Made by a program: the position numbers and the translations under genes | The notes under the pieces: model-generated | The model's input: only the letters and a program-made list of their open reading frames with translations | Told to the model about the DNA's origin: nothing | Databases searched by the model: none | Assembly: GCF_900128995.1 (NCBI RefSeq) | Contig: NZ_FQUE01000001.1 | Span: forward strand, 806,001-870,000 | Direction: 5' to 3' | From: Loktanella atrilutea | GTDB lineage: Bacteria > Pseudomonadota > Alphaproteobacteria > Rhodobacterales > Rhodobacteraceae | Length of the DNA stretch: 64,000 bases | In this document: positions 6,553 through 50,474 of the stretch, piece by piece | Position numbering within the stretch: position 1 is the stretch's first letter | Layout of the letters: every line of letters begins with the position of its first letter

Positions 6553-7833
6553 ATGAACCGACCGGCAGAGGGTCTGACACCCGCCCTGACCGCCCCGGAC
6601 GGGCTGCGGCTCGGCTGGCGCAGGCTGGAATGGTGGGGTGCGTCGATCGCCCTGTTCCTGCAGACGGGCGCCGTCTTTCCCTTGTTGCTGATGGTGCAGA
6701 ACGGCGAGCTTGGCGATGCAGAGCGGGCGCGTCTGCGCCTGCTGCAACTGCCCGTCATCGCCATCGTCGGTCTTTTGCTGCCGCGCCATGCGACCGCCCT
6801 GATCGTCGCGCTGCGCCGGTCGCTGCCGCTGGTCCTGCTGATCGGACTGACCGTCGTGTCCGTCCTGTGGTCGATCGAGGCGCCGCTGACCCTGCGCCGC
6901 GCCATCTCTCTGGTTGTGACCTGCCTGCTGGCTGCGCTGCTGGCGATCCGCTTTTCCCCGCGGCAGCTGCTGCTGCTGACCTCGGGCGTCATCGGCGCCT
7001 GCCTTTGGCTGAGCCTTGCCGCCGCCGTGCTTGCGCCCGGTGCCGCGTGGAGCCCCGATGGCGAGGGGTTGCGTGGCGTCTATACCCACAAGAACGTGCT
7101 GGGCTGGGCGGCTGCCATCGGCTTTGTCTGCGGTCTGGCGCTTTGGCGGGATGCGCAGCGCGCGCTGCACCGGCGCGGGTTCTGCCTGACGGGCGCGGCG
7201 CTGGGCTGCCTGATCCTGTCCGGGTCGGGCACCGGGGTCATCTGTGCCGCGGTGGCGGTCGTGCTTTTCCTCTTTCACGCCGGTCTGGCGCGCACGCGGG
7301 GGCTGATGCGCCTCGTCTGGCTGCAGAGCGCGGCGCTGTTGGTCGGTGGCGTGGTTCTTGGCGGCCGTTCGCTGCTGGTCCATGTGCTGGACGCGCTGGG
7401 CAAGGACGCGACCTTGACCGGCCGCCTGCCCCTGTGGGATCTGGTCGATGCCCGCATCGCGGTGAAGCCCTGGCTGGGCTACGGCTACCAGTCGTTCTGG
7501 ACGCCCGGCACCTTCGGCAACGACCTGATCGCCGCGGCTTTGCAATGGAACCCGCCCCATGCCCACAACGGTTTCCGCGACACGCTGCTGAGCGTCGGTC
7601 TGCTGGGACTGGCGCTGCTGATCTGGGTCCTGCTGCGGGCGATCCGGCAGGGGGCCGCGCTGCAGGCGCGCGCGCCGCAGGACGGCTGGATCTGGCTGAA
7701 CGTCCTGATCGGCGTCATGATCGCGATGAACCTGACGGAAAGCAACCTGCTGGCGCAGAATGACGTCCAGTGGCTGCTGCTGGCCACGGCGATCGTCATG
7801 CTGGGACTGCGTGCGCCACAGCCTGCCGACTGA
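6553..7833 (+). CDS. O-antigen ligase/ExoQ-like polysaccharide polymerase (Wzy_C)
   Basis: 426 residues from ATG 6553, with AAAGGG about 10 nt upstream. This is a polytopic inner-membrane protein with about ten hydrophobic segments. The Wzy_C signature region is present: SVLWSIEAPLTLRRA, then GVYTHKNVLG, and later a periplasmic loop with GRLPLWDLVDARIAVKPWLG followed by GYGYQSFW. Proteins of this family join lipid-linked repeat units (polymerases such as ExoQ) or transfer polymer to an acceptor. Next to an ExoF/ExoP-type system, polymerase is the better guess. It opens the rightward operon, 244 nt from the divergent export operon. Confidence 0.88.
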   Translation: MNRPAEGLTPALTAPDGLRLGWRRLEWWGASIALFLQTGAVFPLLLMVQNGELGDAERARLRLLQLPVIAIVGLLLPRHATALIVALRRSLPLVLLIGLTVVSVLWSIEAPLTLRRAISLVVTCLLAALLAIRFSPRQLLLLTSGVIGACLWLSLAAAVLAPGAAWSPDGEGLRGVYTHKNVLGWAAAIGFVCGLALWRDAQRALHRRGFCLTGAALGCLILSGSGTGVICAAVAVVLFLFHAGLARTRGLMRLVWLQSAALLVGGVVLGGRSLLVHVLDALGKDATLTGRLPLWDLVDARIAVKPWLGYGYQSFWTPGTFGNDLIAAALQWNPPHAHNGFRDTLLSVGLLGLALLIWVLLRAIRQGAALQARAPQDGWIWLNVLIGVMIAMNLTESNLLAQNDVQWLLLATAIVMLGLRAPQPAD

Positions 7834-36665: not shown

Positions 36666-37694
36666 TCAGTCCGATCCGCGGCGCCCGTATTGCAGCAGGA
36701 TCGGGACCATGATGACGAGAATGACGATGCGGGCGAAGTGGTGGATGGCTACAAAGGCGGGATCGTAGCCAAGGGCGAGGCCGATCGCCGCCATCGCCTC
36801 GACCCCGCCGGGGGCATAGGCGATCCAGATTTGCCCCCAGGGCAGGCCGGTCAGCAGCGCGGCGGCACTGGCGAAGGCCAGCGAGACGCCGAGCGTCGTG
36901 CCGATCAGCACCGTCCCTGCCCCCGCCATGCCAAGAAGCTGGCGCGGCGTGATGGCAGTCAGCCGCGTGCCCGCGGCGGTCCCGGTCACGACGAAGGCGG
37001 CGAAGATCGCCCAAGCGGGCGCCGGACCGTGGGCGAGGTCGGCGACATGGGCGCTGGCGCTGAGGATCATGCCGATCAGCAGGCAGGCGGCCGGCACCTT
37101 CCACCGGGCGGCGAGTGTTCCGGCGCCCAGCGTCAGCGCCAGCAGCAGCACAAGAGCCACCGCTCCCATCGGATGCACGACACGCAAAGCCGCCGGCTGC
37201 GCGTCAAGTGCGGTGGCGAGCGGCGGGACGACGGCGACCAGCACCAGAAGCCGCATCACCTGCAGGATGGTGATCGTCGTCACGTTGCCGTGGCCGTCCA
37301 GCGCGATCGCGATGGCGTTCGACATGGTGCCGGGAGAGCTGGACAGATAGGCGGTTTCCACGTCCATGCCGAAGACCCGGCGCAGCAGGGTGGCCCCGCC
37401 CATCAGTGTCGCGACAAGCGACAGCGCCAGCAGCAGCAGACTGACGGACCAGGACCCCACCTGCGACAGCGCGTCTGCCTGCACCCCGGCGCCGAGCGAG
37501 ATGCCGATGATGGCGAAGGCCACGTCGCGCAGCCGCTGCGGGACGGCCATCGCGACGCCCAGCGTGGCGGCGACGGCGACCGCGATGCTGGACCCGATCA
37601 GACCCGCCGCCGGCAGGCCGATCAGCGCGGCGCAGGTCGCACCGGCAAGGCCGATTACGGCCGCCGTTGCCGCCTTTCTGAAACCCGAGATCAT
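36666..37694 (-). CDS. AbrB-family membrane protein (putative transporter)
   Basis: 342 residues from ATG 37694, with AAGGGCG about 8 nt upstream. It is almost entirely hydrophobic, with 9-10 predicted membrane segments. Two related halves are typical of the AbrB/ammonia-monooxygenase-like family: LRDVAFAIIGISLGAGVQAD with YLSSSPGTMSNAIAIALDGH in the first, and WIAYAPGGVEAMAAIGLALG in the second. The family is often linked to tricarboxylate transport loci but its substrate is not established. It may be a second permease or exporter for the same acid. The hairpin at 37861-37886 separates it from tctA. Confidence 0.82.
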   Translation of the reverse strand: MISGFRKAATAAVIGLAGATCAALIGLPAAGLIGSSIAVAVAATLGVAMAVPQRLRDVAFAIIGISLGAGVQADALSQVGSWSVSLLLLALSLVATLMGGATLLRRVFGMDVETAYLSSSPGTMSNAIAIALDGHGNVTTITILQVMRLLVLVAVVPPLATALDAQPAALRVVHPMGAVALVLLLALTLGAGTLAARWKVPAACLLIGMILSASAHVADLAHGPAPAWAIFAAFVVTGTAAGTRLTAITPRQLLGMAGAGTVLIGTTLGVSLAFASAAALLTGLPWGQIWIAYAPGGVEAMAAIGLALGYDPAFVAIHHFARIVILVIMVPILLQYGRRGSD

Positions 37695-37860
37695 CGCGTC
37701 GCCCTTGCTTGACTTGGATACGGAACGGCGGCGCATGTCCGTGCCGTTCGGTGCGGGGCCGCGCCGTGCGGCAGGTCCCTGCCCCGCGGTGCGGCCTGCG
37801 CCATCGGCGTGGCGCGAAGGGTGGTGCGTGTCATCGGTCTTCTTTTGATCAGTGCGTGTG

Positions 37861-37892: not shown

Positions 37893-39407
37893 TCATGCGT
37901 CGCCTTCGGCCATGTTGCGGGCGCGGCGTCCCATCCAGATCGGCAGGACCACGACCAGCAGGGCCAGACCGTACAGCAGGAGGCTCTTCCAGTTGTCGAT
38001 CAGGATGTACCAGTCCCCGCCAGAGATCGACAGGGCGCGACGCAGGTTGTTCTCGAACAGTCCGCCCAGCACGAAGCCGAGGATCACGGGGGCAAGCGAG
38101 AAATCGAGCTTGCGCAGGAACCACCCGAAGATGCCGAGCCATGTGATCATGAACAGGTCGAACGGATTGCCGACGATGGAGTAGATGCCGACGAAGGCAA
38201 GGATCGCGATCAGCGGCGTAAGGTAGTGCTGCGGGATCGTCAGCATCCGGGCGAAGAGGCCCACAAGCGGCAGGTTGATGACCAGCAGCGCGACGTTGCC
38301 GATGTACATCGAGGCGATCAGACCCCATGCGATCTCTGGTCGCTGGGCGAACATCAGCGGGCCGGGCTGGATGTTGAACATCAGCAGCGCGCCCAGCAGG
38401 ATCGCCGTGGTGCCGGATCCGGGGATGCCCAGCGTCAGCATCGGCACCATGGCGCCACCCGCTGCCGCGTTGTTGGCGGCCTCCGGCGCCGCAAGGCCCC
38501 GCACGTCGCCGGTGCCGAAGGTGCGCTGCCCCTCTGCCCCCGCCATCCGCTTTTCGGTGCCGTAGGCCACGGCAGATGCGACGGATGCCCCCGTCCCCGG
38601 CAACACGCCGATGAAGAAGCCGATCAGCGAACAGCGCAGGATCGTCCACTTGGTCTTGGCGAGGTCGGCCCAGCGGACGAAGCTCTTGTCGACCGGCAGG
38701 GTCTTGAGCTTGCCGGTGACCTGCTGCTCGACAAGGTGCAGCAGCTCGGCCATGCCGAAGAGGCCGACGACGACGATCAGGAAGTCGATACCCGCCAGGA
38801 TGTCTGGCAGCCCGAAGGTGTAGCGCGCGACGCCGGTGTTGCTGTCGATGCCGATGGTGGCCAGCATCAGGCCGATCAGGGCGCCCAGCAGTGTCTTGAC
38901 CGTGCTCTTGCCCACAAGAGAGGCGAGCGAGGCGAAGGCGAAGACCATCAGCGCCACGTAGTTGGCGGGAGAGAAGGTCACGGCGAACTGCGCCAGCAGC
39001 GGCCCGAAAAGCGACATCAGCACGACGGCGATGGTGCCGCCGACGAAGCTGGCGACGGCAGACAGGGACAGGGCGCGTCCCGCCTCGCCGTTCAGGGCCA
39101 TGGGGTGGCCGTCGAGGGTGGTCATCACGGCGCCGGAGTCGCCCGGCACGTTCAGCAGGATCGAGGAGATGCGGCCGCCGTATTCGGCGCCGTAGTAGAT
39201 GCCCGCCAGCAGGATCAGCGCGCTTTCGGGCGGAAAGCCGAGGCCGTAGGCGATGGGCAGCAGGATCGCCACGCCGTTGATCGGGCCAAGCCCCGGCAGC
39301 GCGCCGATCAGCGTGCCGGCAAAGCAGCCCAGCAGCACCAGCATCAGGTTGAAGGGCATGAGTGCGACACCGAAACCGGTCGCCAGCCCCGAGAGGACGT
39401 CGCCCAT
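37893..39407 (-). CDS. tctA: Tripartite tricarboxylate transporter, large membrane subunit TctA
   Basis: 504 residues. It is the channel-forming inner-membrane subunit of a secondary, binding-protein-dependent carboxylate transporter. Twelve hydrophobic segments are expected. Family signatures are GALPGLGPINGVAILLPIAY, YYGAEYGGRISSILLNVPGD, GSGTTAILLGALLMF and GIPGSGTTAI near the second repeat, and FFIGVLPGTGASVASAVAYG. The start overlaps the tctB stop (TGATG). Hairpins on both sides of the membrane-subunit genes suggest differential expression relative to tctC. Confidence 0.95.
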   Translation of the reverse strand: MGDVLSGLATGFGVALMPFNLMLVLLGCFAGTLIGALPGLGPINGVAILLPIAYGLGFPPESALILLAGIYYGAEYGGRISSILLNVPGDSGAVMTTLDGHPMALNGEAGRALSLSAVASFVGGTIAVVLMSLFGPLLAQFAVTFSPANYVALMVFAFASLASLVGKSTVKTLLGALIGLMLATIGIDSNTGVARYTFGLPDILAGIDFLIVVVGLFGMAELLHLVEQQVTGKLKTLPVDKSFVRWADLAKTKWTILRCSLIGFFIGVLPGTGASVASAVAYGTEKRMAGAEGQRTFGTGDVRGLAAPEAANNAAAGGAMVPMLTLGIPGSGTTAILLGALLMFNIQPGPLMFAQRPEIAWGLIASMYIGNVALLVINLPLVGLFARMLTIPQHYLTPLIAILAFVGIYSIVGNPFDLFMITWLGIFGWFLRKLDFSLAPVILGFVLGGLFENNLRRALSISGGDWYILIDNWKSLLLYGLALLVVVLPIWMGRRARNMAEGDA

Positions 39408-39871
39408 CAGTTCGTTCCTTCAGTGTTGGAGTATGGCTTCGCCAGAAGCTCTGCGTCCGGCAGGTTCAGGTCGAGGATCTCGACGCACAGTACCCAGCCA
39501 AGCACGCCGGCGCACAGGCCGAAAAGTCCCGCGCGGAGCCATGCGGCCCCCAGCATCCGGGCCACGATGGCGCCGAAGAGGATGGTGGAGACGATGAAGC
39601 CCAGCGGCTCGTAAAGTTCCGCGTAGGCAAAGAGCAGGACCACCATCGCGCCAAGGCGGAACCATGTCCGGCCGGCGACGTGCAGATGCTCTGTATCGGG
39701 TTTCCACAGGATGCCCAGTATGCACAGCACCGCCACGACCGACAGGATCTGCGGCCAGCTTTCGGGGCCGAGAGGGTCGTATTGGAACGGGGCCTTGATG
39801 ATCGTGAACGCGATGAACCCGTAGGCCAGCGTGACGAGCAACAGCAGCCCGGCGAAGATCCGGTCGGCCAT
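39407..39871 (-). CDS. tctB: Tripartite tricarboxylate transporter, small membrane subunit TctB
   Basis: 154 residues, the usual size for TctB. It has four hydrophobic segments (about residues 5-25, 40-58, 72-100, 108-132). It starts ADRIFAGLLLLVTLAYGFIA and contains PLGPESWPQILSVVAVLCIL, the conserved TctB segment before the second helix. It partners TctA in the inner membrane. It overlaps tctA by 1 nt in TGATG form and follows tctC after a strong hairpin. Confidence 0.9.
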   Translation of the reverse strand: MADRIFAGLLLLVTLAYGFIAFTIIKAPFQYDPLGPESWPQILSVVAVLCILGILWKPDTEHLHVAGRTWFRLGAMVVLLFAYAELYEPLGFIVSTILFGAIVARMLGAAWLRAGLFGLCAGVLGWVLCVEILDLNLPDAELLAKPYSNTEGTN

Positions 39872-39943: not shown

Positions 39944-40918
39944 TTACTGCTGGATCAGACCGGCTTCGGTCGCGATTTCGCGCAGGGTGGCCATGTTCTC
40001 GTCGACGCGGGCCTTCAGCTCGTCACCGGCGAGGTTCAGGGGCAGCAGGCCCTTGTCGGCCTGGACCTGCTCGAACTCCGGCGTGGCGTAGGCCGCCTTG
40101 AAGGCGTCGACCCAGGTGTTGTAGTCCGCGTCGGACACGCCCTTGCCCATGTAGAAGCCGCGCATGATCGTCCATTCGACGTCGAAGCCCTGCTCCTTGG
40201 CGGTCGGGATCTCGGCGAAGGCGCCGTCGAGGCGTTCGTCGGACATCACCGCCAGCACGCGCATGTCGCCGGCTTCCATGTGGGACGCCATTTCACCCAC
40301 GTCGCCGGTATAGACTTCGATCGACCCGCCGAGCAGTGCGGCAATCGCGTCGCCGCCGCCGTCGAAGGCCACGTAGCGCATGTCCATCGGGGACGCGCCG
40401 GTCTCACGGACCAGCAGCGCCGCCTTCATCCAGTCCTGCGATCCGACGGAGCCGCCTGCGCCCACGACGATGGAGGACGGATCGTTGCCCAGATCGGTCA
40501 TCAGCTGCTCCAGCGAGGTGTATTCGCTGTCGGCCTTGACGATGACGGCACCGAAGTCGGCACCCGCCGTGCCCAGCCAGCGCACGTCGTTTTCATCGAA
40601 ATCGCCGTACTTGCCTGTCGCGATGTTCAGCAGCGACCCGGTCGAGAAGGCGACGATGGCGTTGGGATCGTCGGTGCGGGTGGTGTTGAACAGGTTGTAG
40701 GCCACGGCGCCGATGCCGCCGGGCATGAAGGTCACCTGCATCGGGCCGCCGAAGGCATCGGCAAGGCCGGTCTGCGCGACGCGGCAGGTCACGTCGAAAC
40801 CGCCGCCCGGCTGGGCCGGGGCGATGCATTCGGGGCTGGTGACTTCGGCAGAGGCAAGGGTCGGCAAGGCCAGTGTCGCGGCCAGCAGTGCAGCGCCGGT
40901 CATACGGTTCAGGGTCAT
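39944..40918 (-). CDS. tctC: Tripartite tricarboxylate transporter substrate-binding protein TctC
   Basis: 324 residues from ATG 40918; GGAGGAG lies about 9 nt upstream. A Sec signal peptide (TGAALLAATLALPTLASAE) ends around residue 24. The mature periplasmic protein has the Bug/TctC layout: CIAPAQPGGGFDVTCRVAQT (first ligand loop), VTFMPGGIGAVAYNLFN, VVGAGGSVGSQDWMKA, and MRYVAFDGGGDAIAALLGGS (second ligand loop). It captures a carboxylic acid and delivers it to TctAB. The PGGGFD loop and Gly-rich ligand sites fit a carboxylate but do not identify it. Confidence 0.93.
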   Translation of the reverse strand: MTLNRMTGAALLAATLALPTLASAEVTSPECIAPAQPGGGFDVTCRVAQTGLADAFGGPMQVTFMPGGIGAVAYNLFNTTRTDDPNAIVAFSTGSLLNIATGKYGDFDENDVRWLGTAGADFGAVIVKADSEYTSLEQLMTDLGNDPSSIVVGAGGSVGSQDWMKAALLVRETGASPMDMRYVAFDGGGDAIAALLGGSIEVYTGDVGEMASHMEAGDMRVLAVMSDERLDGAFAEIPTAKEQGFDVEWTIMRGFYMGKGVSDADYNTWVDAFKAAYATPEFEQVQADKGLLPLNLAGDELKARVDENMATLREIATEAGLIQQ

Positions 40919-41016
40919 CGGGGTCTCCTCCCATTGAGACAAGATTCAAGGGACGCGGTGCGCCCGGTCCCCACCTAGCGGGCCAGTCTGTCGCCTTGCT
41001 GAGGCGTGGCTTTCGC

Positions 41017-41097: not shown

Positions 41098-41769
41098 ATG
41101 CGGATGCTGCTTGTGGAAGACAACGACGATCTGGCCGAGACGATACTGGATCGTCTGCGGGCCGAAGGCCATTCCATCGACCGCGAGTCCGACGGCGATC
41201 AGGCCAACAGCCTGCTGCGCCACGCGCGGTTCGACATCGTGCTGCTGGATATCAACCTGCCCGGGCGCAGCGGCTACGAGGTGCTGCGGTCCTTGCGGGC
41301 GCGCGGAGACGAAACACCGGTCATCATCCTGACCGCCCGCAGCCGGATCGACGACCGGGTGCTGGGACTGGACGCGGGTGCCGACGATTACATGGTCAAG
41401 CCGGTGGATTTCCGCGAACTCTCGGCCCGCTGCCGGGTGCTGGCGCGGCGCCGCGCGGGCAGCGCCAGCAACGTCTTCGCCGCCGGCGACCTCGTCTTCG
41501 ACCGGGCCGCCAAGCGTGCCACCGTGCGCGGACAGGACGCCGACCTGCGCGCGCGCGAGATCCAGTTGCTGGAGATCCTGATCGACAACCTCGGCCGGAT
41601 GCTGACCAAGGAAGAGGTCGCCGACAAGCTTTACAGCTTCGACGAGGCGCCAAGCCTGAACGCGGTCGAGCAGATCGTCGCGCGTCTGCGCAAGCGGCTG
41701 GAGGGCACGCCGCTGGTGGTCAAGACGGCCCGGGGCTTGGGATACATGGCCTATGTGGCCGAAGACTGA
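41098..41769 (+). CDS. tctD: OmpR-family response regulator (TctD-like)
   Basis: 223 residues. The receiver (1-115) has all active-site residues: acidic pair in LLVEDNDDLA, phospho-acceptor Asp in IVLLDINLPGRSG, Thr in VIILTARS, and Lys in DDYMVKPVDFRE. The winged helix (about 125-220) has LRAREIQLLEILIDNLGRML, then SLNAVEQIVARLRKRLEG and TARGLGYMAYV. Together with the overlapping kinase it should sense a carboxylate and induce the divergent tctCBA operon. The candidate operator lies 52-81 nt upstream. It overlaps the kinase gene by 17 nt. Confidence 0.92.
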   Translation: MRMLLVEDNDDLAETILDRLRAEGHSIDRESDGDQANSLLRHARFDIVLLDINLPGRSGYEVLRSLRARGDETPVIILTARSRIDDRVLGLDAGADDYMVKPVDFRELSARCRVLARRRAGSASNVFAAGDLVFDRAAKRATVRGQDADLRAREIQLLEILIDNLGRMLTKEEVADKLYSFDEAPSLNAVEQIVARLRKRLEGTPLVVKTARGLGYMAYVAED

Positions 41770-44197
41770 CCGGACCTACTCGCTGCAGCGCCGCCTGCTG
41801 GCGTCGATGGCGCTGGGCTTCGTGGCGTTGCTGCTGATCATCTCGGTCCTGCTGTGGAGCTATGCCCGCGACGCGTCCAACCGCACCTACGACCTGTTGC
41901 TGGCCGGGGCGGCGCTGGCGGTGCTGGACCGGGTGTCGTCGGGGCCGTCGGGCATTTCCGTCGACCTGCCCTATTCGGCGATGGAGATCCTCGCCCTCGC
42001 GCCGCAGGACCGGATCGCCTACCGCGTCTTTTCAGACCGGGACGGAGAACTGACAGGCACCCCCGGCCTGCCCGCGCCGCGCGATGCGACGCTGGGCAGC
42101 GTGCCCGTCTTCTATGACGCGTACCTCGACGCGCCGTTCCGCTTCGTCCAGCAGGGCCGGCAGCTGACGACGCCGACGGGGCGGGTCTGGGTCGGGGTGC
42201 AGATCGGCCAGACCCGCGCGGGGCGCGCCGCACAGCAGCGGGCGCTGTTCCTCAGCGGCATGGGCGGCCTTGCGGTCGTGTCCCTGATCGGGCTGGGGTT
42301 CGTCTGGCTGGCGATCCGGGTGGCGCTGGCCCCGCTGCGGCAACTGGCAGAGACCCTGCGCGTGCGCGATCCCGGGGATCTGTCGCAGATCGAGGGGGCC
42401 CCGCCGCGCGAGATCCGGGGGCTCTTCGACGCGATCAACGGCTTCATCCGCAGGCTGCATGCCAACCGGCAGCTGACGGAAACCTTCATCGCCGATGTCG
42501 CCCACCAGACCCGCACGTCTCTGTCGGCGTTGCAGGGGCAGCTGTCACTGGCGGCGGATGCGGCCAGCTTCGACGAGATGACGACACGGATGCACAAGGC
42601 CGACAGTCAGGCGCGGCGCACGGTGCGACTGACCAACCAGCTGCTGGCCCATGCGATGGTCACGCACCGGGCCGATACCGGCACCCTGCGCCCCGTCGCG
42701 CTGAAACCGGTCGTGACGGAGGTCCTGACCGATCTGCTGCGCGACAGCGACATGCGCGGGATTACCCTGACCCTGTCCGCCGACGACATCGCGGCGGGCG
42801 AAGATCTGGTGCGCGGCGATGCTATTTCCCTGCGCGAGGCGCTGTCGAACCTGCTGGAGAACGCACGCCGCCACGGTCCTGCCGACAACACGATCGACGT
42901 CACGCTGGAACCCGGCGGCACCGACACCGTATCGCTGATCGTCGAGGACGCTGGCCCCGGCATCGCGCCGGCGGACCGGGCCCGCGCGACGGAGCGCTTC
43001 ACCTCGATTTCCCGCACCACGGCGGGATCGGGGCTGGGCCTGTCGATCGTGCGCGCGGTGGCGGAAAGCCATGACGCACGCCTGATGCTCGGCACGTCGG
43101 CCCGCGGCGGGCTGCGCGTGGAACTGCAGTTCAAACGACTTCTGTCGCAGGCTGCCGGGCGGGCGGTGACGGCACTGATCGTGCCCGTGGTGGCGCTGCT
43201 GCTGACCATTGCGCCGGGTGCGGCGCAGGCCATGACCCAGATCACCATCGCCAGCGCGACGGACACCGATGTGATGACGGCGTTGATCGACCGCTTCGAG
43301 ACGCTGAACCCCGACGTCGCCATCGCCTACCGCGAATACCAGACCGTCGACCTGCACCGGCTGATCCTGAACGCGGCACCCGAGGACATGCCCGACGTGG
43401 TCATCAGCCCCGCGATGGACATGCAGGTCGATCTGGTGAACCGCGGGCTGGCCCTGCCGCTCGCGATCCCAGAGGCGCTGCGCCTGCCGGACTGGGCGGT
43501 CTGGCGGTCGGAACTCTTCGGTTTCACCTTCGAACCGGCGGTCATCATCTACAACACCGACCTGATCGCTCCTGGCACGCTGCCGCAGGAACACCGCGAA
43601 CTGACCAACTACATCCGCAGCAACGAAGTCCGGCTGAACCGGCGGATCGGCATCTACGACCTGCGCCGATCCGGGATCGGATACCTTTTCGCGACGCAGG
43701 ACGTGGTGCAGGGTCTGCAGGCGTCCCGCATGACGGAAGTGCTGGCGCGCGCCAACGTGCGCCGCTTCTGCTGCACCTTCGAGATGATCGCCGCGACGGC
43801 GCGGGGCGATCTGGCGCTGTCGATGAACGCGATCGGGTCCTACGCGCTGGCGGCCGCGGCCAAGGACCCCCGGCTGGGCGTCCATTTCATGAGCGACTAC
43901 AACCTCGTCATGGCGCGCACCGCCTTCGTGCCGCGCGACGCGCCGCACGCGGATATCGCCGAACGGTTCATCGCCTTCCTGCTGACCGAAGGCCAGCGCG
44001 TCCTGTCCACCGAATCCGACCTGATCCCGATCCTGCCCTATGCGGACGTGCCCGTCGGCGGCCATATCGACCTGCGCGATTTCGCGGGCAGCTTCCTGCC
44101 CATCAAGCTCGGCCCCGGCCTGCTGACCTACCTCGACGCCCGCAAGAAGGCGGAATTTCTGGAAACATGGGATACCTCGGTCAGCTTCGGTCCCTGA
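41753..44197 (+). CDS. TctE-like sensor histidine kinase fused to a periplasmic solute-binding-protein-like domain
   Basis: 814 residues, whereas TctE kinases are usually about 460-480. Residues 10-35 form TM1, followed by a periplasmic 2CSK_N sensor domain, TM2 (about 165-190) and HAMP. The H-box FIADVAHQTRTSLSAL keeps the phospho-His but has Ser in place of the usual Pro. N-box ALSNLLENARRHGPADN and G-boxes EDAGPGIAP and GSGLGLSIVRAV are intact. After the ATPase domain comes a third hydrophobic segment (about 470-492, VTALIVPVVALLLTIAPG, ending AAQA), then about 320 residues with ABC solute-binding-protein character (ITIASATDTDVMTALIDRFE, MPDVVISPAMDMQVDLVNRG). No stop codon separates them. 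The order recalls the PgtB kinase and PgtC binding-type regulator of phosphoglycerate transport, here as one polypeptide. Confidence 0.88.
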   Translation: MWPKTDRTYSLQRRLLASMALGFVALLLIISVLLWSYARDASNRTYDLLLAGAALAVLDRVSSGPSGISVDLPYSAMEILALAPQDRIAYRVFSDRDGELTGTPGLPAPRDATLGSVPVFYDAYLDAPFRFVQQGRQLTTPTGRVWVGVQIGQTRAGRAAQQRALFLSGMGGLAVVSLIGLGFVWLAIRVALAPLRQLAETLRVRDPGDLSQIEGAPPREIRGLFDAINGFIRRLHANRQLTETFIADVAHQTRTSLSALQGQLSLAADAASFDEMTTRMHKADSQARRTVRLTNQLLAHAMVTHRADTGTLRPVALKPVVTEVLTDLLRDSDMRGITLTLSADDIAAGEDLVRGDAISLREALSNLLENARRHGPADNTIDVTLEPGGTDTVSLIVEDAGPGIAPADRARATERFTSISRTTAGSGLGLSIVRAVAESHDARLMLGTSARGGLRVELQFKRLLSQAAGRAVTALIVPVVALLLTIAPGAAQAMTQITIASATDTDVMTALIDRFETLNPDVAIAYREYQTVDLHRLILNAAPEDMPDVVISPAMDMQVDLVNRGLALPLAIPEALRLPDWAVWRSELFGFTFEPAVIIYNTDLIAPGTLPQEHRELTNYIRSNEVRLNRRIGIYDLRRSGIGYLFATQDVVQGLQASRMTEVLARANVRRFCCTFEMIAATARGDLALSMNAIGSYALAAAAKDPRLGVHFMSDYNLVMARTAFVPRDAPHADIAERFIAFLLTEGQRVLSTESDLIPILPYADVPVGGHIDLRDFAGSFLPIKLGPGLLTYLDARKKAEFLETWDTSVSFGP

Positions 44198-44218: not shown

Positions 44219-45001
44219 TCAGACCGTGAAGGCGCCCCGAAACGCCTCCAGCGCCGCAACCGGGTCGCCCGCGGCGTAGGCTTCCATCGCCACCGGCCCG
44301 GCATAGCCCATGTCCCGCAGCGCCCGCGCGACGGCGGCATAGTTGATCTCGCCGGTCCCCGGCTCGCAGCGGCCGGGGTTGTCGGCGACCTGCACCTCGC
44401 CGATCCAGGGCAGGCATTTTTCGCACCAGCGGATCAGGTCGCCCTCTCCGATCTGGGTGTGATAGAGGTCGAGGTTGATGCGCAGCTGCGGGCGGTCGAC
44501 GGATGACACCAGCGCCAGCACGTCCGCGGTCGACCCGAAGGGGCAGCCGGGATGGTCCAGCGGGTTGAGGTTCTCGAGGCAGAAGGTCACGCCCTCCGCC
44601 TCGGCCATGTCGCAGATGCGGTGCAGGGTATCGCGGGCCTTCAGCCACATCGGCCCCGTCACGACCTCTTGCTGCCGAATCGGGATGCCGCCCTCGCCAA
44701 GGCCCGTGCCGTGCAGGTTCAGCCGGTCGACGCCCAGCCGCTTGCCGACCTGCGCCGTCTCGCGCGCGGAGGCGAGCAGCATGTCGGCGCCTTCGTCGTC
44801 GGCCAGACGGCCCCGCAGGTAACCGTTCATGATCGTGTAATCCGCGCCGACAGCCTCCAGTTTCGCAAGGTCATGATCCGGCCAGTTCCAAAGGCCGACG
44901 CCGAATCCCATCTCTTTCAGGCGCGCAGCGCGCCAGTCGATCGGCCGGTCGCGCCAGAGCATCTCGGCGCAGGCAGCGAACCGGAAGGGCTGAGTCGTCA
45001 C
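44219..45001 (-). CDS. TIM-barrel sugar isomerase/epimerase (hydroxypyruvate isomerase- or IolI-like)
   Basis: 260 residues from GTG 45001, overlapping the iolB stop (GTGA). This is an AP-endonuclease-2-type TIM barrel. Metal-ligand segments are VTFCLENLNPLDHPGCP (Glu), LRINLDLYHTQIGEGDL (Asp and His), IGEVQVADNPGRCEPGTG (Asp and His-like loop) and a terminal VAMEAYAAGDP (Glu). The family includes hydroxypyruvate isomerase and the inosose isomerase IolI. As the last gene of the inositol operon it likely interconverts an inosose or a downstream keto sugar. HPRs-type hydroxypyruvate isomerase remains an alternative. Confidence 0.8.
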   Translation of the reverse strand: MTTQPFRFAACAEMLWRDRPIDWRAARLKEMGFGVGLWNWPDHDLAKLEAVGADYTIMNGYLRGRLADDEGADMLLASARETAQVGKRLGVDRLNLHGTGLGEGGIPIRQQEVVTGPMWLKARDTLHRICDMAEAEGVTFCLENLNPLDHPGCPFGSTADVLALVSSVDRPQLRINLDLYHTQIGEGDLIRWCEKCLPWIGEVQVADNPGRCEPGTGEINYAAVARALRDMGYAGPVAMEAYAAGDPVAALEAFRGAFTV

Positions 45002-45807
45002 GGCGCGTCGCGGTCCATGATCCACTGCACCTCTGGCGCCGCGACAAAGCGCCAGTTGCGGCGGGGACCGGCCATGACATTCAGGTAATACATCTCGAAC
45101 CCGTAGGGCGCGCCGCAGGGGTGGTGGCCGCGGGGGACCAGCACCACGTCGCCATCCTTGACCGCCATCGTCTCGTCGAGTGACCCGTCGTCCGTATAGA
45201 CCCGCTGGACGCCAAAGCCCGTGGCGGGGTTGAGGCGGTGGTAATAGGTTTCCTCCAGATAGGTGATCCGGGGGAAATCGTCTTCGTCGTGGCGGTGACT
45301 GGGAAAGGACGACCAGTGGCCGGCGGGGGTGAAGACCTCCGTCACCAGCAGGCTGTCGCAATAATCCTCGGCCTCCATCGCGATGTTGTTGATATAGCGC
45401 GTATTTGTGCCCTTGCCGCGTTCCGTCAGAGTGATTCCGTCGGGCCCGATGCGGCGCGCCTCGTGCCCGCCTTTGCCGGGGGCGCTGCACACGGCGATCA
45501 CGCAGTCGGTCTCGGCTCTTGCCTCCCAATCGGTGCCGTCCGGCAGGTAGAGGCAATGGGGCGGCGCCTTCTCGAAGACGTCCATCCGGTCGCCCAGCGT
45601 GCCCCAGTCCTGCCCGGCACCGGTGATCTGCGCCTTGCCCTCGACCATCACGATGATGACCTCTCGGTCGCCAGTCGCCTTGGCGACAGTATCGCCGGCC
45701 CTCAGGCGGTGCAGCGCGAATCCGACGTAGCGCCAGCCGGCGCTTTCGGGGGTGATGGCATGCACTTCGCCACGGGTGCCGAAGGGTTTTCTCAGAAGGT
45801 CCGGCAT
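44998..45807 (-). CDS. iolB: 5-deoxy-glucuronate isomerase
   Basis: 269 residues from ATG 45807, with AAAGG upstream. IolB converts 5-deoxy-D-glucuronate to 2-deoxy-5-keto-D-gluconate in inositol catabolism. It is a two-domain cupin. Motifs are GWRYVGFALHRLRAGD, the metal-binding cluster HWSSFPSHRHDEDDFPRITY with its His and Glu ligands, LEETYYHRLNPATGFGVQRV, and DVVLVPRGHHPCGAPYGF. The position between iolE and the TIM-barrel gene, with tight spacing on both sides, fits the pathway. Confidence 0.96.
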   Translation of the reverse strand: MPDLLRKPFGTRGEVHAITPESAGWRYVGFALHRLRAGDTVAKATGDREVIIVMVEGKAQITGAGQDWGTLGDRMDVFEKAPPHCLYLPDGTDWEARAETDCVIAVCSAPGKGGHEARRIGPDGITLTERGKGTNTRYINNIAMEAEDYCDSLLVTEVFTPAGHWSSFPSHRHDEDDFPRITYLEETYYHRLNPATGFGVQRVYTDDGSLDETMAVKDGDVVLVPRGHHPCGAPYGFEMYYLNVMAGPRRNWRFVAAPEVQWIMDRDAP

Positions 45808-45811
45808 GGGC

Positions 45812-46735
45812 TTACCTTTCGATGCGCAGGCCGGAGCGGCCGCAGATCTGCGTGATGTGCTCAAACCCGAGCTTGGAGTAGTCATAGGGCGGGGACTTGG
45901 CGGGGTCCTGTTCGGCCTCCACCACGATCCAGCCGGCGTAGTCCATCGCCGCCAGCCGGTCGGTGATCGCCTGGAAGTCGGTGCAGCCCTCGGGATCGCC
46001 CGGCACGGTGTAGACCCCCGCCCGCACCCCGTCGAGGAAGCTGCGGTCGCCGTCGCGGACCCTCGTCAGCACGTCGGGCCGCACGTCCTTGAAGTGGACG
46101 TGATGCACCCGGTCGCCCCATTTATCCAGGACCGCCAGCGGGTCGGCCCCGGCAAAGACCAGATGCCCAGTGTCGTAGAGCAGCGTGACCTCCGGTCCGG
46201 AGCCGTCCATCAGCCAATCGATGTCATGGGAGTCCTCGATCATCGCGCCCATGTGGTGGTGGTAGGACAGGGTCATGCCGGCGTCCCGCACGCGCTTCGC
46301 CAGCTCTGTGAGCTTCTTCGCGTAGCCCGTCACCTCGTCGCGGCTCAGCTTCGGGCGCTGGCTGACGGGGGTGTTCACCATGCCCTGCACAGTGTTGGAA
46401 CATTCCGCGTAGACGATGCAGGGCGCGTTCAGGGTGGTGAACTGGTCGACCTGCTGGCGGATCGCGGCAAATTCCTCCTCGACCGTGGCGACATGCAGGT
46501 TGCCCGAACACCAGCCGCCGCAGAGGCTGACGCCGTAGCGGTCGAGGTAGGCGCGCAGGCCGTCGGTGTCGGCAGGCATCCGGCGACCGCGTTCGACACC
46601 GGCGTATCCGATGCGGGCCGCGTCCTCCATCGCGCCTTCGGTGGTGAATGCCGCCGTCAGGTCCGGAAGGTCGTCGTTCTGCCAGGCGATCAGGGAGATG
46701 CCGATCTTGACGGTCTTCGCGGTGTCGGCGGGCAT
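45812..46735 (-). CDS. iolE: myo-inosose-2 dehydratase
   Basis: 307 residues; ATG 46735 overlaps the iolD stop (TGATG). IolE dehydrates scyllo-inosose (2-keto-myo-inositol) to the diketone THcHDO. It has a TIM-barrel fold. Family motifs are IGISLIAWQNDDLPDLT at the N-terminus, GYAGVERGRRMPAD, MTLSYHHHMGAMIEDSHDID (metal His cluster), TLLYDTGHLVFAGADPLAVL and VHHVHFKDVRPDVL, with a terminal WIVVEAEQDPAKSPPYDYSK. All conserved ligands are present and the length is normal. Confidence 0.97.
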   Translation of the reverse strand: MPADTAKTVKIGISLIAWQNDDLPDLTAAFTTEGAMEDAARIGYAGVERGRRMPADTDGLRAYLDRYGVSLCGGWCSGNLHVATVEEEFAAIRQQVDQFTTLNAPCIVYAECSNTVQGMVNTPVSQRPKLSRDEVTGYAKKLTELAKRVRDAGMTLSYHHHMGAMIEDSHDIDWLMDGSGPEVTLLYDTGHLVFAGADPLAVLDKWGDRVHHVHFKDVRPDVLTRVRDGDRSFLDGVRAGVYTVPGDPEGCTDFQAITDRLAAMDYAGWIVVEAEQDPAKSPPYDYSKLGFEHITQICGRSGLRIER

Positions 46736-48567
46736 CAGGTGGTCCTCTGGGTTTGCTTGTTGGTCTCGTAGGTCTCGCGCGCCTGCGCCACGGCGTCGCG
46801 GTCCGACACCTCTGGCACGGTCACGTCCCACCATGTCCCGCCCGGTTCCGAACTGGGATAGGGGTCGGTGTCGATGACGATGACGTAGGGCTCGGTGGCC
46901 TCGTGGCGGCGGGTGAGCGCGTCCTCGAGTTCCGCGATGGAGCCGACCTTGACCGACGTGGCCCCCATGGCGGCGGCATGGGCGGCGAAGTCGATGGCCG
47001 AGGGTTGGACGTGGATCGTGTGGTCCAACAGGTTGTTGAACTCCGCCCCGCCGGTCGCCATCTGCAGGCGGTTGATGCAGCCGTAGCCCCGGTTGTCGGT
47101 CACGACCACGGTGAAGGCGATGCCCATCATCGCCGCCGTCGCCAGTTCGGAGTTGGCCATCATGTAGGTGCCGTCGCCGGTGAAGCAGATCACGTCACGC
47201 TCCGGCTCCGCCATCTTGATGCCCATGGCCCCCGCGATCTCGTAGCCCATGCAGGAGAAGCCGTATTCCATGTGGTAGCTGCCGGGACGGCCCGCCTTCC
47301 ACAGCTTGTGCAGCTCGCCCGGCATGGTCCCGGCGGCGCACATGACGACCGTGTCGGGGGTGGCCGCGCGCTGGACGGCACCGATCACCTGCATGTCGGT
47401 GGGCAGGGCATTTCCCTCGCCCGGGGGTGCGGTCAACGGATCGACGACGGCGAACCAGTCGTCCTTCAACCCGTCGATGCTGCCCTGCGCGCAGTGGTGG
47501 CCGAGAGCCTCCGTCAGCTCCTCCAGCCCCACGCGGGCATCGGCGACCAGCGGCAGGGCGTCGTGCTTTGCCGCGTCGTAGGCCGCGACGTTCAGGCAGG
47601 CGATCCGGCGGGAGGGGTTGGCGAAGAGGCCCCATGACCCGGTCGTGAAGTCCTGGAACCGGGTGCCGATGCCCAGCACGAGGTCGGCCTCGGCGCAGAC
47701 CGTGTTCGCGGCGGTGCCCCCGGTGACGCCCACGGGGCCGAGGTTCAGAGGATGATCCCAGCCCAGCGCCGATTTGCCGGCCTGGGTTTCCACGACGGGG
47801 ATGTGGAAGGCTTCCGCGAAGGCGCGCAACGCCTCCGTCGCGCCGGAATAATGCACGCCGCCGCCCGCCACGATCACCGGGCGCGTCGCAGCCCGGATCG
47901 CATCGGCCATCGCCGCCAGTTCACCTTCGTCGGGCCGGATGCGACGCTGCCGCCAGACCTTCGGCGCAAAGAAGCTCTCCGGCCAGTCGAAGGCCTCGGC
48001 CTGCACGTCCTGGCAGAAGGCGAGGCACACCGGGCCGCAGTCGGCGGGGTCGGTCATGGTGCGGAAGGCGCGTGGCAGGGCGGTCAGCAGCTGTTCGGGC
48101 CGGGTGATCCGGTCGAAGTAGCGCACGACGGGGCGGAAGCAGTCGTTGGCGCTGACCGTGCCGTCGCCGAAATCCTCGATCTGCTGCAGCACCGGGTCGG
48201 GGCCGCGGTCGGCGAAGACGTCGCCCGGCACCAGCAGGACCGGCAGGCGGTTCACATGGGCGAGTGCCGCCGCCGTCACCATGTTCAGCGCCCCCGGCCC
48301 GATGGAGGATGTCACCATCATCGCACGCCTGCGCCCGAGTTGCTTGGCATAGGCGATGGCGGCATGGGCCATGGTCTGCTCGTTGTGACCGCGCCAGGTG
48401 GCGAAGGTCTCGCGGTGGGCGTGCAGCGCCTCGCCGATGCCCGCCACGTTGCCGTGGCCGAAGATCGCCCAGCAGCCTGCGATGAAGGGCGCGCCATCGT
48501 CGTTCTGCTGCGCCGCGACGTAGCGGATCATGGCCTGCGCCGCCGTCAGTCGGATCGTTCCGGTCAT
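46735..48567 (-). CDS. iolD: 3D-(3,5/4)-trihydroxycyclohexane-1,2-dione hydrolase (THcHDO hydrolase)
   Basis: 610 residues from ATG 48567 (GGGAGGAG upstream), overlapping the iolC stop (ATGA). This ThDP-dependent enzyme opens the ring of the diketone to 5-deoxyglucuronate. The PYR domain has the activating Glu region WRGHNEQTMAHAAIAYAKQL, the central domain IVAGGGVHYSGATEALR, and the PP domain the ThDP motif ICFTGDGTYMMANSELATAA with TDNRGYGCINRLQM closing the GDG-N motif. Length and motifs agree with the family. Confidence 0.96.
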   Translation of the reverse strand: MTGTIRLTAAQAMIRYVAAQQNDDGAPFIAGCWAIFGHGNVAGIGEALHAHRETFATWRGHNEQTMAHAAIAYAKQLGRRRAMMVTSSIGPGALNMVTAAALAHVNRLPVLLVPGDVFADRGPDPVLQQIEDFGDGTVSANDCFRPVVRYFDRITRPEQLLTALPRAFRTMTDPADCGPVCLAFCQDVQAEAFDWPESFFAPKVWRQRRIRPDEGELAAMADAIRAATRPVIVAGGGVHYSGATEALRAFAEAFHIPVVETQAGKSALGWDHPLNLGPVGVTGGTAANTVCAEADLVLGIGTRFQDFTTGSWGLFANPSRRIACLNVAAYDAAKHDALPLVADARVGLEELTEALGHHCAQGSIDGLKDDWFAVVDPLTAPPGEGNALPTDMQVIGAVQRAATPDTVVMCAAGTMPGELHKLWKAGRPGSYHMEYGFSCMGYEIAGAMGIKMAEPERDVICFTGDGTYMMANSELATAAMMGIAFTVVVTDNRGYGCINRLQMATGGAEFNNLLDHTIHVQPSAIDFAAHAAAMGATSVKVGSIAELEDALTRRHEATEPYVIVIDTDPYPSSEPGGTWWDVTVPEVSDRDAVAQARETYETNKQTQRTT

Positions 48568-50474
48568 CTCGTCTCCTCCCGCACGGCGTCCCGCGCCCTG
48601 TCCCAGGTGTCGCACAGCCGGGCGTAATTCTCTGCCATCATGTCGACGGCCTCTCCATCGGTGATCTGGCCGTCGAGCCAGGCCCGCGCCGCGTCGCCGA
48701 AGATCGTGCGTCCCACGGCGAAGCCCTTGACCAGCGGCTGCCGTGCGGCCAGCGCGAAGCTTTCCGCCAGCCCCGCCTGCGGCGCGTCGAGGCCCAGCAC
48801 GACGATGCCGCGGGTGCGGGGATCATTGCGCTCGATGGCGGCTGTGGCATTGGCCCAGGCGGCTTCCGTCTTGAACGGCTCCAGCTTCCACCAGTCGGGG
48901 AAGACGCCGGCGTCGTAGAAGGTCTGGATCAGTGCGGCCGAGGTCATGTCGTCCACCGGGCCGACCTTCGACGGGATGATCTCGAGCAGGAATTCCAGCC
49001 CGTTGCGCCGCGCGGCGGTGAAGAGGCGCTTGACGCGGGCGACCTGCATCTTGGCGGTCTTGTCGTCGTCGTCCGGGTGGCAGAAGACCAGCAGCTTGAC
49101 CACGTTCTCGCGCGCCCATTCGCGAAGCTGGCCCAGATCCTCGCCCAGCTCCGGCTCGAAGTCGACGGGGCGTGAGCCGGGCAATTCGGTGGGCCGCCCG
49201 ATCCAGAGGCCCGATCCGCTGGCACGGTGCAGCGCCGACCGCCCGATCCGGTTGTCACAGAGGATGCCGTAGCCCGGCCGCCCGTCCTGCACCCGCAGGG
49301 CGGCGTCGAGGCAGAGCTCCTTGAACCGCCCGCCCTTGGCCGGGGTATAGCCCGCCATCTCCTCCAGCTGGCTGCGGTGGTCGAAGGCGAAGGTCTTGAC
49401 CGACGACCAGTCGCCGGAGCGGTTCGTCGCCCAATGCACCTGCTCAAGCTCCGCGTCGTGCCGCAGATCGGGGCGTTCGATGCCGCGGTCGAAAAAGAAC
49501 TGCAGCTCCTCCCAGCTCGGATAGGCCGGGGTGCAGCCGTGGCGGCTGACGGCGAAGGCGCCGCAGGCGTTGGCGTATTTCAGGGCCGTAGGCCAGTCCG
49601 CGCCGTCCAGCCAGCCCTTCAGCAGGCCGGACATGAAGCCATCGCCGGCGCCGAGCACGTTGAAGACCTCGATGAGAAAACCGGGGCCTGCCTCGCCCTC
49701 GTCCAGCGAGTCGGGGATCGCGCCGGTAAAGGCCACCGCCCCCGCCGCCCCGCGCTTGCACACCAGCGTGGCACCCGACACGGCCCGCACGGCCCGCAGT
49801 GCGGCAATCGTGTCGGTGGTGCCGCCGGCGATGTGGAATTCCTCCTCCGTCCCCACGATCAGGTCAAAAAGGTGCAGCGTGCCCTGCAGCTTCGCCGTCA
49901 CGGCGGCGCTTTCGACGAAGCGGCTCTCGCCGTCGCCATGCCCCGCCACGCCCCAGAGGTTCGGGCGGTAGTCGATGTCGAGGGCCGTCAGCATCCCGTC
50001 GGCGCGCGCGATCTTCAACGCCTTCAGCGTCGCCGCCTCCACCCGGGGGTGGCTCAGGTGCGTGCCCGTCGCCACCACCGCACGGGCGGACCGGATGAAG
50101 CCTTCGTCGATGTCATCCACCGTCAGTCCCATGTCGGCGCAGTTCTCGCGGTAGAAGATCAGGGGAAAGCTGTCCGCGTCGCGGATCCCCAGCAGCACCA
50201 GCGCCGTCAGCCGGTCGGGGTCGGTCTTGACGCCGCGCGTGTCCACCCCCTCGCACTGCAACTGCTCGCGGATGAAGCGCCCCATGTGTTCATCGCCCAC
50301 ACCGGTAATCAGCCCCGACTTCAGCCCCAGCCGCGCGGTGCCGCAGGCAATGTTCGTCGGGCTGCCGCCGATGTATTTGTCGAAGGACCCCATGTCCTCC
50401 AGCCGCCCGCCCACCTGCGCGCCGTACAGGTCCACGGAACTGCGGCCGATGGTGATGAGGTCGAGGGTCTTCAT
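48564..50474 (-). CDS. iolC: 5-dehydro-2-deoxygluconokinase fused to DUF2090 aldolase-like domain
   Basis: 636 residues. Residues 1-325 are a PfkB kinase: [20 protein letters not shown], the substrate-side [16 protein letters not shown], and the catalytic Asp and anion hole [20 protein letters not shown]. It phosphorylates 2-deoxy-5-ketogluconate. Residues about 345-630 are a DUF2090 domain ([65 protein letters not shown]), which is aldolase-like and may carry the next step. This two-domain form occurs in many proteobacteria. The operon contains no separate iolJ-type aldolase gene, consistent with the fused domain doing that job. Confidence 0.93.

Follow-up and report, generated by a model that had tools for sequence, protein, structure and literature searches.

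A sensor histidine kinase and a solute-binding protein encoded in one frame beside tctCBA in Loktanella atrilutea: a candidate precursor of a citrate-type three-component sensor

Introduction

The window analysed here is a stretch of 64,000 nucleotides (nt) from Loktanella atrilutea (contig NZ_FQUE01000001.1, positions 806,001 to 870,000), and all coordinates below are counted from its first letter. At 41753-44197, on the plus strand, it contains a single open frame of 814 codons, with no internal stops, in which a TctE-type sensor histidine kinase is followed by a hydrophobic segment with the features of a signal peptide and then by a solute-binding protein (SBP). The reading we favour, to which we assign a probability of roughly 0.55, is that this gene belongs to a citrate-type three-component sensor in which the kinase and the binding protein are synthesized as a single precursor and then cut apart. 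It draws on the conservation of the fused frame and of its junction, the family of the SBP, and the adjoining tricarboxylate transporter genes.

The fused gene

The features of the fused gene are:

41753-44197, plus strand: fused gene of 814 amino acids, TctE-type sensor histidine kinase, putative internal signal peptide (third hydrophobic segment) and SBP (open reading frame, Pfam, relatives with the same frame, alignment of 19 fusions)
41825-42241, plus strand: sensor domain 2CSK_N, residues 25-163, the match starting within the first hydrophobic segment (Pfam, 2.8e-26)
42482-42649, plus strand: HisKA, residues 244-299, with phospho-acceptor His251 in AHQTRTSL (Pfam, 6.9e-8; His invariant in the 19 fusions)
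42815-43135, plus strand: HATPase_c, residues 355-461 (Pfam, 7.2e-22)
43142-43231, plus strand: internal signal-peptide-like segment, K464-A493, with a predicted signal peptidase I site after AAQA (A493^M494; junction alignments and a low-confidence AlphaFold2 (AF2) helix)
43232-44194, plus strand: SBP domain of the MctA/3c9h type, residues 494-814 (Pfam, PDB profile search, structural model and Foldseek; values below)

The combination of 2CSK_N, HisKA and HATPase_c makes the N-terminal half a TctE-type kinase; a HAMP match at residues 188-237 (1.2e-4, 22.7 bits) is under its cut-off of 25. His251 of the H-box, Asn366 and Asn370 in the N-box region, G401-P402-G403 and G425-S426-G427-L428-G429 are invariant across the 19 aligned fusions. 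A first-pass annotation of this stretch had described one uninterrupted kinase-SBP frame, a TctE-type kinase with intact H, N and G boxes and a third hydrophobic segment ending in AAQA, and all three descriptions hold. The 19-residue Kyte-Doolittle mean of that segment is 2.27 and its C-terminal end reads AAQA^MTQ. Whereas the kinases of split relatives end with the ATPase domain, shortly beyond GGLxVxL, the fused protein runs on for some 350 residues beyond HATPase_c. The G+C content of the gene is that of the surrounding DNA.

In the window's clade the usual Pro of the H-box is replaced by Ser (HQTRTSL, 42503-42523). We rejected this change as a consequence of fusion, since it is shared by the split sisters L028, L056 and L130-L132; locus L094 has HQVRNPL and L101 has HQMRTPL.

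Relatives with the same frame

A scan of genome contigs with the fused protein yielded 16 loci, 15 of which match over nearly the full length with best-segment identities of 52-72%; the match of the sixteenth (L024) is limited to the kinase core. The kinase-SBP frame is uninterrupted in 14 of the 15, the other being that of Roseisalinus antarcticus (L019), which is broken inside the SBP (at about 6656-6674). The tctC match of this locus is likewise in two pieces (3331), and the breaks may reflect decay of the locus or assembly errors. A plasmid collection contributed 28 matching records, and in half of these (14/28) the match covers no other SBP or kinase feature than a single "extracellular solute-binding protein". 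Eight of the plasmid loci were read in detail (Palleronia, Sulfitobacter, Salipiger profundus, Peteryoungia and four Azospirillum species); each has one coding sequence spanning both halves.

Because independent assemblies of many species have the same single frame, an artefact is excluded and the 814-codon fusion is real. That an assembly or sequencing error joined two neighbouring genes, as the two-gene arrangement of most sampled relatives might lead one to suppose, is exceedingly improbable. The first-pass annotation had also named what would undo its proposal, a sequencing error hiding a stop codon or frameshift, or homologues always encoded as two genes. The former is contradicted by the 14 of 15 relatives and the eight plasmid loci, among which the HATPase-to-SBP architecture it proposed searching for is found; the latter is false, the fusion being conserved in more than one group, though two genes are the common state.

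The genome to which the window belongs has one fused copy; its 19 other matches (E<=0.001) are confined to query residues 10-477, that is to the kinase part. The eight other members of the genus, among the 195 closest relatives, gave no match at E<=1e-60, and the distribution of the fusion is therefore patchy. With the SBP half as query, matches were obtained in 157 of 295 genomes of the family (mostly one per genus), 25 of 385 of the class and 60 of 398 of the phylum. All loci with an open frame of at least 640 codons were fetched among the matches listed, since a shorter frame cannot hold the fusion, together with a selection of others. Fusions among the matches listed come from genomes G000 (in all three samples), G107, G088, G150 and G026 in the family sample, and G618 and G539 in the class sample; the phylum sample added none to G000.

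Split relatives and the history of the fused state

In most sampled relatives there are two genes, the SBP gene directly following the kinase gene and starting within its end; in other split loci the SBP gene is divergent from the regulator-kinase pair, and in the split locus of Maritalea a gap separates the kinase and SBP genes. For 84 split rows, a set that includes a few loci twice, SBP starts were selected so as to favour a Shine-Dalgarno match; in 83 rows the selected start precedes the first base of the kinase stop codon by 1 to 37 nt. The offsets are 1 nt (43 rows), 28 (24), 25 (8), 19 (4), 37 (2), 4 (1) and 31 (1), with none found in one row. A Shine-Dalgarno match of at least 4 nt precedes the SBP start in 65 of the 84, an upper figure given the choice of starts. 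All of these offsets place the SBP in the same shifted frame, so that fusion needs an insertion or deletion. In a large group of the window's family (e.g. L032-L054, L085 and L102) the SBP gene begins 28 nt, or 19-25 nt, ahead of the kinase stop codon, an overlap longer than the ATGA type.

Trees were built from concatenated kinase and SBP sequences of loci with a kinase match of at least 380 query residues, an SBP of at least 280 residues and no internal stop. With 110 rows (28 fused, including L019, and 82 split; ten named rows dropped as duplicates or near-duplicates) at least four changes of state are required, two of them forced by starred branches. L019, labelled split in the first dataset, is counted as fused in this tree. 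A more careful tree of 50 rows, a chosen subset of 15 of the 28 fused and 35 of the 82 split rows, needs three changes, again with two forced by starred branches, and 0% of 200 bootstrap trees need only one. A single clade for all fused rows was rejected on the 50-row tree by the approximately unbiased (AU) test (p 3.8e-53). The fused groups are the Rhodobacterales clade of the window, which is nested among split rows; Azospirillum with Peteryoungia and G026; and G539 (L101). The root was not inferred, hence gains and losses of the fusion are not strictly separable; the fused state apparently arose repeatedly from overlapping gene pairs.

The junction and its predicted signal peptidase site

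In the window's clade hardly anything separates the last ATPase strand (GGLxVxLxF) from a basic residue, after which come a short hydrophobic run, a small-x-Ala motif, mostly two or three further residues and the first SBP strand. The window junction combines a basic n-region, an h-region, a small residue at -3 and Ala at -1, the features of a signal peptidase I substrate; taken alone, these features are not specific. A MAFFT alignment of the 21 Rhodobacterales fusions has Ala in 20 of 21 rows at the -1 column (the Ala of L099 being out of register) and Arg, also in 20 of 21, immediately after the last ATPase strand; from this Arg to the first SBP strand no further residue column is common to at least 17 of the 21. 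When the rows are anchored at the first SBP strand the best column has Ala in 17 of 21, a value equalled by none of 2000 within-row shuffles. Entropy is low at -1 and -3 and high at -2, -4 and -5, and Pro or Gly occupies -6 in 12 of 18 rows, in a profile whose cleavage column was picked by rule and is hence biased towards the motif; this automatic placement was wrong for L099 and L101 and settled on one of two candidate sites in L021. Over all 28 fused rows, a possible small-x-Ala site follows the hydrophobic core in every one, and Lys or Arg precedes the core in 27 (L180 is the exception). Cleavage by signal peptidase I would most likely fall after Ala493, and the earlier suggestion that AAQA could allow cleavage is upheld as a possibility, the Ala column being conserved at the predicted site.

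The alternative is that the protein stays whole, as a kinase with three membrane segments and an SBP held permanently on the outer side, so that ligand capture and kinase control are intramolecular. We regard this as unlikely, though it is the most serious of the competing readings, and several observations count against cleavage and in its favour. The strict A-x-A motif occurs in 15 of 20 fused junctions and 44 of 79 split signal peptides, and also in 30 of 101 first and 42 of 101 second membrane segments (TM1 and TM2) of the kinases. With Pro or Gly before the A-x-A site added, the numbers are 14 fused junctions, 55 split signal peptides, 31 TM1 and 28 TM2. A relaxed rule (14/20, 67/79, 71/101 and 70/101 respectively) gives no separation of the junction from TM1 and TM2; in all of these controls L019, one of the 20 fused junctions, was read out of frame. 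Small-x-Ala motifs are frequent in these Ala-rich proteins, and motif counts of either kind were rejected as proof of cleavage, being unspecific relative to TM1 and TM2. The case for cleavage, which is itself an inference, consequently rests on column conservation, in which related rows are not independent. The junctions are moreover hydrophobic enough to remain in the membrane (best 19-residue means of 1.5-2.4, some of these windows extending back into the ATPase strand), and the fused state has been kept across the relatives of 52-72% best-segment identity. In the full-length AF2 model (19 rows; mean predicted local distance difference test score, pLDDT, 75.4) the last ATPase strand spans residues 454-462 and is followed after three residues by a helix at 466-483; confidence in this third segment is low (10-residue pLDDT means of 61, 52 and 45).

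A permanent tether would make a signal peptidase site unnecessary and would ordinarily come with a longer linker. In most rows of the window's clade only two or three residues separate the Ala from the first SBP strand; the small residue at -3 and Ala at -1 are kept while the remainder of the junction varies; and all 28 fused rows, in separate groups of the tree, retain a possible site. We favour cleavage over a permanent tether because the -3 and -1 residues are conserved. On the cytoplasmic side there is almost no linker either, so the C-terminus of the ATPase domain would be at the membrane even after cleavage, unless the remnant is trimmed. This too speaks against our reading, as the near-absent linker in the window's clade would hold the ATPase domain at the membrane whether the protein is cleaved or not.

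Export by the twin-arginine translocation (Tat) pathway was considered and rejected: twin arginines occur in some junctions only, the window having KR and others PR, AR or QR.

A further possibility is that the frame gives a second product, an SBP precursor started internally near the end of the kinase. The SBP of split relatives starts in the same region; position 6 after GGL is TTG in 6 and ATG in 3 of 17 genes of the window's clade; and in 4 of 19 fused genes (L016, L020, L021 and L095) a start-like codon near the junction is accompanied by a 5-nt Shine-Dalgarno match. In the window, however, position 6 is CTG, and the search within 40 codons of GGL and the last ATPase strand turned up no start-like codon that has a Shine-Dalgarno match. 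The SBP is therefore probably synthesized solely within the fusion. Fourteen of the 19 fused genes are without any Shine-Dalgarno match of at least 4 nt. The signal is weak and not conserved across the fused genes; we set internal initiation aside as very improbable. The frequency of TTG at position 6 is above its usage among Leu codons, and these codons are possibly relic starts or the result of shared descent.

Family and probable ligand of the SBP

The first-pass annotation was right in recognizing a binding-protein domain at the C-terminus, in which Pfam finds SBP_bac_11 (residues 497-751, 2.2e-9) together with SBP_bac_1 and SBP_bac_8; its family can now be given as that of 3c9h and the metal-citrate protein MctA and not TctC, of which there is no match at E<=0.001 in the fused SBP. 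A profile search of the PDB placed 3c9h_A first (8.9e-108), followed by the MctA series (about 1e-76) and then by ferric-binding proteins from 4.7e-11. Structure prediction, which the first-pass annotation had recommended, gives a model of the SBP half (52 rows) with pLDDT 94.1, and the top Foldseek ranks of this model are 3c9h (template modelling, TM, score 0.90) and MctA with Mg-citrate or citrate (up to 0.91). Membership of the MctA/3c9h family thus holds by sequence and by predicted fold over the whole domain.

The residues mutated in MctA, whose role in the citrate site is taken from PDB entry titles, are S26, D28, S79, S164, T199 and Y221; they correspond to A502, D504, P553, S640, T675 and Y697 of the window, with identity at four of the six. 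Across 52 rows, the position of D28 has Asp in 51, that of S79 has Ser in 49, that of S164 has Ser in 49, that of T199 has Thr or Ser in 50 and that of Y221 has Tyr in 52; the position of S26 has Ala in 27, Thr in 18 and Ser in 6. Two facts tell against citrate itself. A502 and P553 differ from MctA, for which reason the ligand may not be citrate, and the genes behind abrB in the window (see below) are not citrate lyase. Among relatives, citC, citD and a malic enzyme gene adjoin the fused gene of Azospirillum thermophilum, and the aconitase gene acnA adjoins the split pair of Bosea. These neighbours, like the family of the SBP, suggest a citrate-type ligand, and the SBP probably captures a citrate-like carboxylate that is possibly complexed with a metal.

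Gene neighbourhood

The genes adjoining the fused gene in the window are:

41098-41769, plus strand: OmpR-type response regulator, overlapping the kinase start by 17 nt (best NCBIfam match TctD)
39944-40942, minus strand: tctC, separate binding protein of the tripartite tricarboxylate transporter (Pfam TctC, 1.6e-17)
39407-39871, minus strand: tctB (Pfam TctB, 5.7e-15)
37893-39407, minus strand: tctA (Pfam TctA, 1.4e-154)
36666-37736, minus strand: AbrB-family membrane protein (PF05145), behind tctA (Pfam, 4.4e-59)

The regulator scores 178.9 bits against the TctD model, under the cut-off of 337. The true start of tctC is probably an ATG 24 nt inside the annotated reading frame. An OmpR-type regulator beside the kinase, with tctCBA divergent from both, constitutes a TctD/TctE-TctCBA locus, which bears out the earlier assignment to a tricarboxylate-transporter locus. 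In all 15 full-length relatives, the broken L019 included, tctA, tctB and tctC are divergent from the regulator gene. The fused genes of G026 and Peteryoungia are followed by the tct genes on the same strand.

It is conceivable that the SBP half serves transport and not sensing, delivering substrate to TctAB or to an ATP-binding cassette (ABC) transporter. The title of the MctA entries names an ABC transporter protein, and the relatives L177, L178, L182 and L183 have ABC transporter genes nearby. SBP genes of this family adjoin tctC at L172 (with tctA as well), L151 and L152, and at these loci and at L077, L078, L082 and L174 no kinase was found in the stretch examined. This is a point against our reading, the family not being tied to kinases everywhere. 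On the other hand TctC, the usual binding protein of such transporters, has its own gene here; in most loci examined the SBP gene is directly after the kinase gene or beside the regulator-kinase pair; and the genes identified beside the fused gene in the window include no ABC permease. A role in transport instead of sensing therefore appears highly doubtful.

Beyond abrB are genes for a dehydratase-like protein, a CoA-transferase III, an acyl-CoA dehydrogenase, an MmgE/PrpD protein and a LysR regulator. The AbrB-family protein is also found behind tctA in the fused loci L010 (by Pfam), L175, L176 and L181 (by annotation), and in Azospirillum thermophilum (L177) it adjoins the regulator gene, which suggests a functional link to the tricarboxylate transporter. 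Downstream, at 44219-50474 on the minus strand and converging on the fused gene, lies a cluster resembling inositol-type catabolism (KduI/IolB family, xylose-isomerase-like, PfkB with DUF2090). The downstream genes vary among the relatives viewed; Salipiger profundus (L181) also has kduI and kduD nearby.

Proposed mechanism

We envisage the three-component sensor as follows. The N-terminal half, a TctE-type kinase, would be held by two membrane segments. The signal peptide behind the ATPase domain would serve as a third membrane segment, N-in/C-out, and export the complete MctA-like SBP. A cut after Ala493 would release a periplasmic SBP in a 1:1 ratio with the kinase, which would keep a short C-terminal membrane tail. 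The ligand-loaded SBP would then bind the 2CSK_N domain of the kinase, and the regulator, once phosphorylated, would activate the divergent tctCBA(-abrB) operon. In its specific form, which we put at even odds, the proposal is of a two-component polyprotein: a single chain, threaded through the membrane by a signal peptide right behind the ATPase domain and cut by signal peptidase I, giving 1:1 partners and leaving a membrane tail on the ATPase domain. This tail may require trimming, perhaps by an RseP-type protease, or it may contribute to the control.

Relation to known systems

In Bordetella the citrate-loaded binding protein BctC binds and activates the TctE-like kinase BctE and so induces bctCBA (PMC5812351, PMC9602780). 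The same logic with a dedicated second SBP would explain the locus in the window. The BctCBA-BctDE and TctCBA-TctDE systems have the same types of transporter, regulator and kinase side by side as the window; there the sensing SBP is TctC or BctC, encoded by a separate gene, whereas here it would be a second SBP of another family, fused to the C-terminus of the kinase. MctA (PDB 7f6e series) and Agrobacterium 3c9h are of the same family as the SBP half by sequence and fold, and MctA shares four of the six probed pocket residues, the other two differing. They differ in being titled an ABC transporter protein and an ABC transporter substrate-binding protein respectively, with chains of 342 and 355 residues that are without a kinase.

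Two other kinds of system are comparable in part. In those of the PgtABC and HptARS type an SBP-type sensor partners a kinase and a regulator that control uptake, as separate proteins of different families. The FbcH cytochrome b/c1 precursor of Bradyrhizobium combines a membrane protein and an exported protein in one frame and is cut at an internal signal peptide; it belongs to a respiratory complex and not to signalling.

Judged from titles, abstracts and some passages, the open-access literature searched yielded no description of a kinase with a C-terminal SBP, no paper naming fbcH, and, judged partly by title, no paper on 3c9h or MctA. The fused precursor is a variant of the known binding-protein-activated two-component systems, present in several separate groups, and the variant itself is new. 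Kinases activated by binding proteins are thought to be widespread, and only about ten have been characterised (PMC9602780). In the eight plasmid loci the fused gene is annotated solely as a solute-binding protein, so that surveys of two-component systems can overlook its kinase half. A joint gene for kinase and SBP names the partners without guesswork, fixes their ratio and offers a direct test of how an SBP communicates with a kinase. If the proposed processing is true, the locus would provide a case of signal peptidase maturing a signalling polyprotein.

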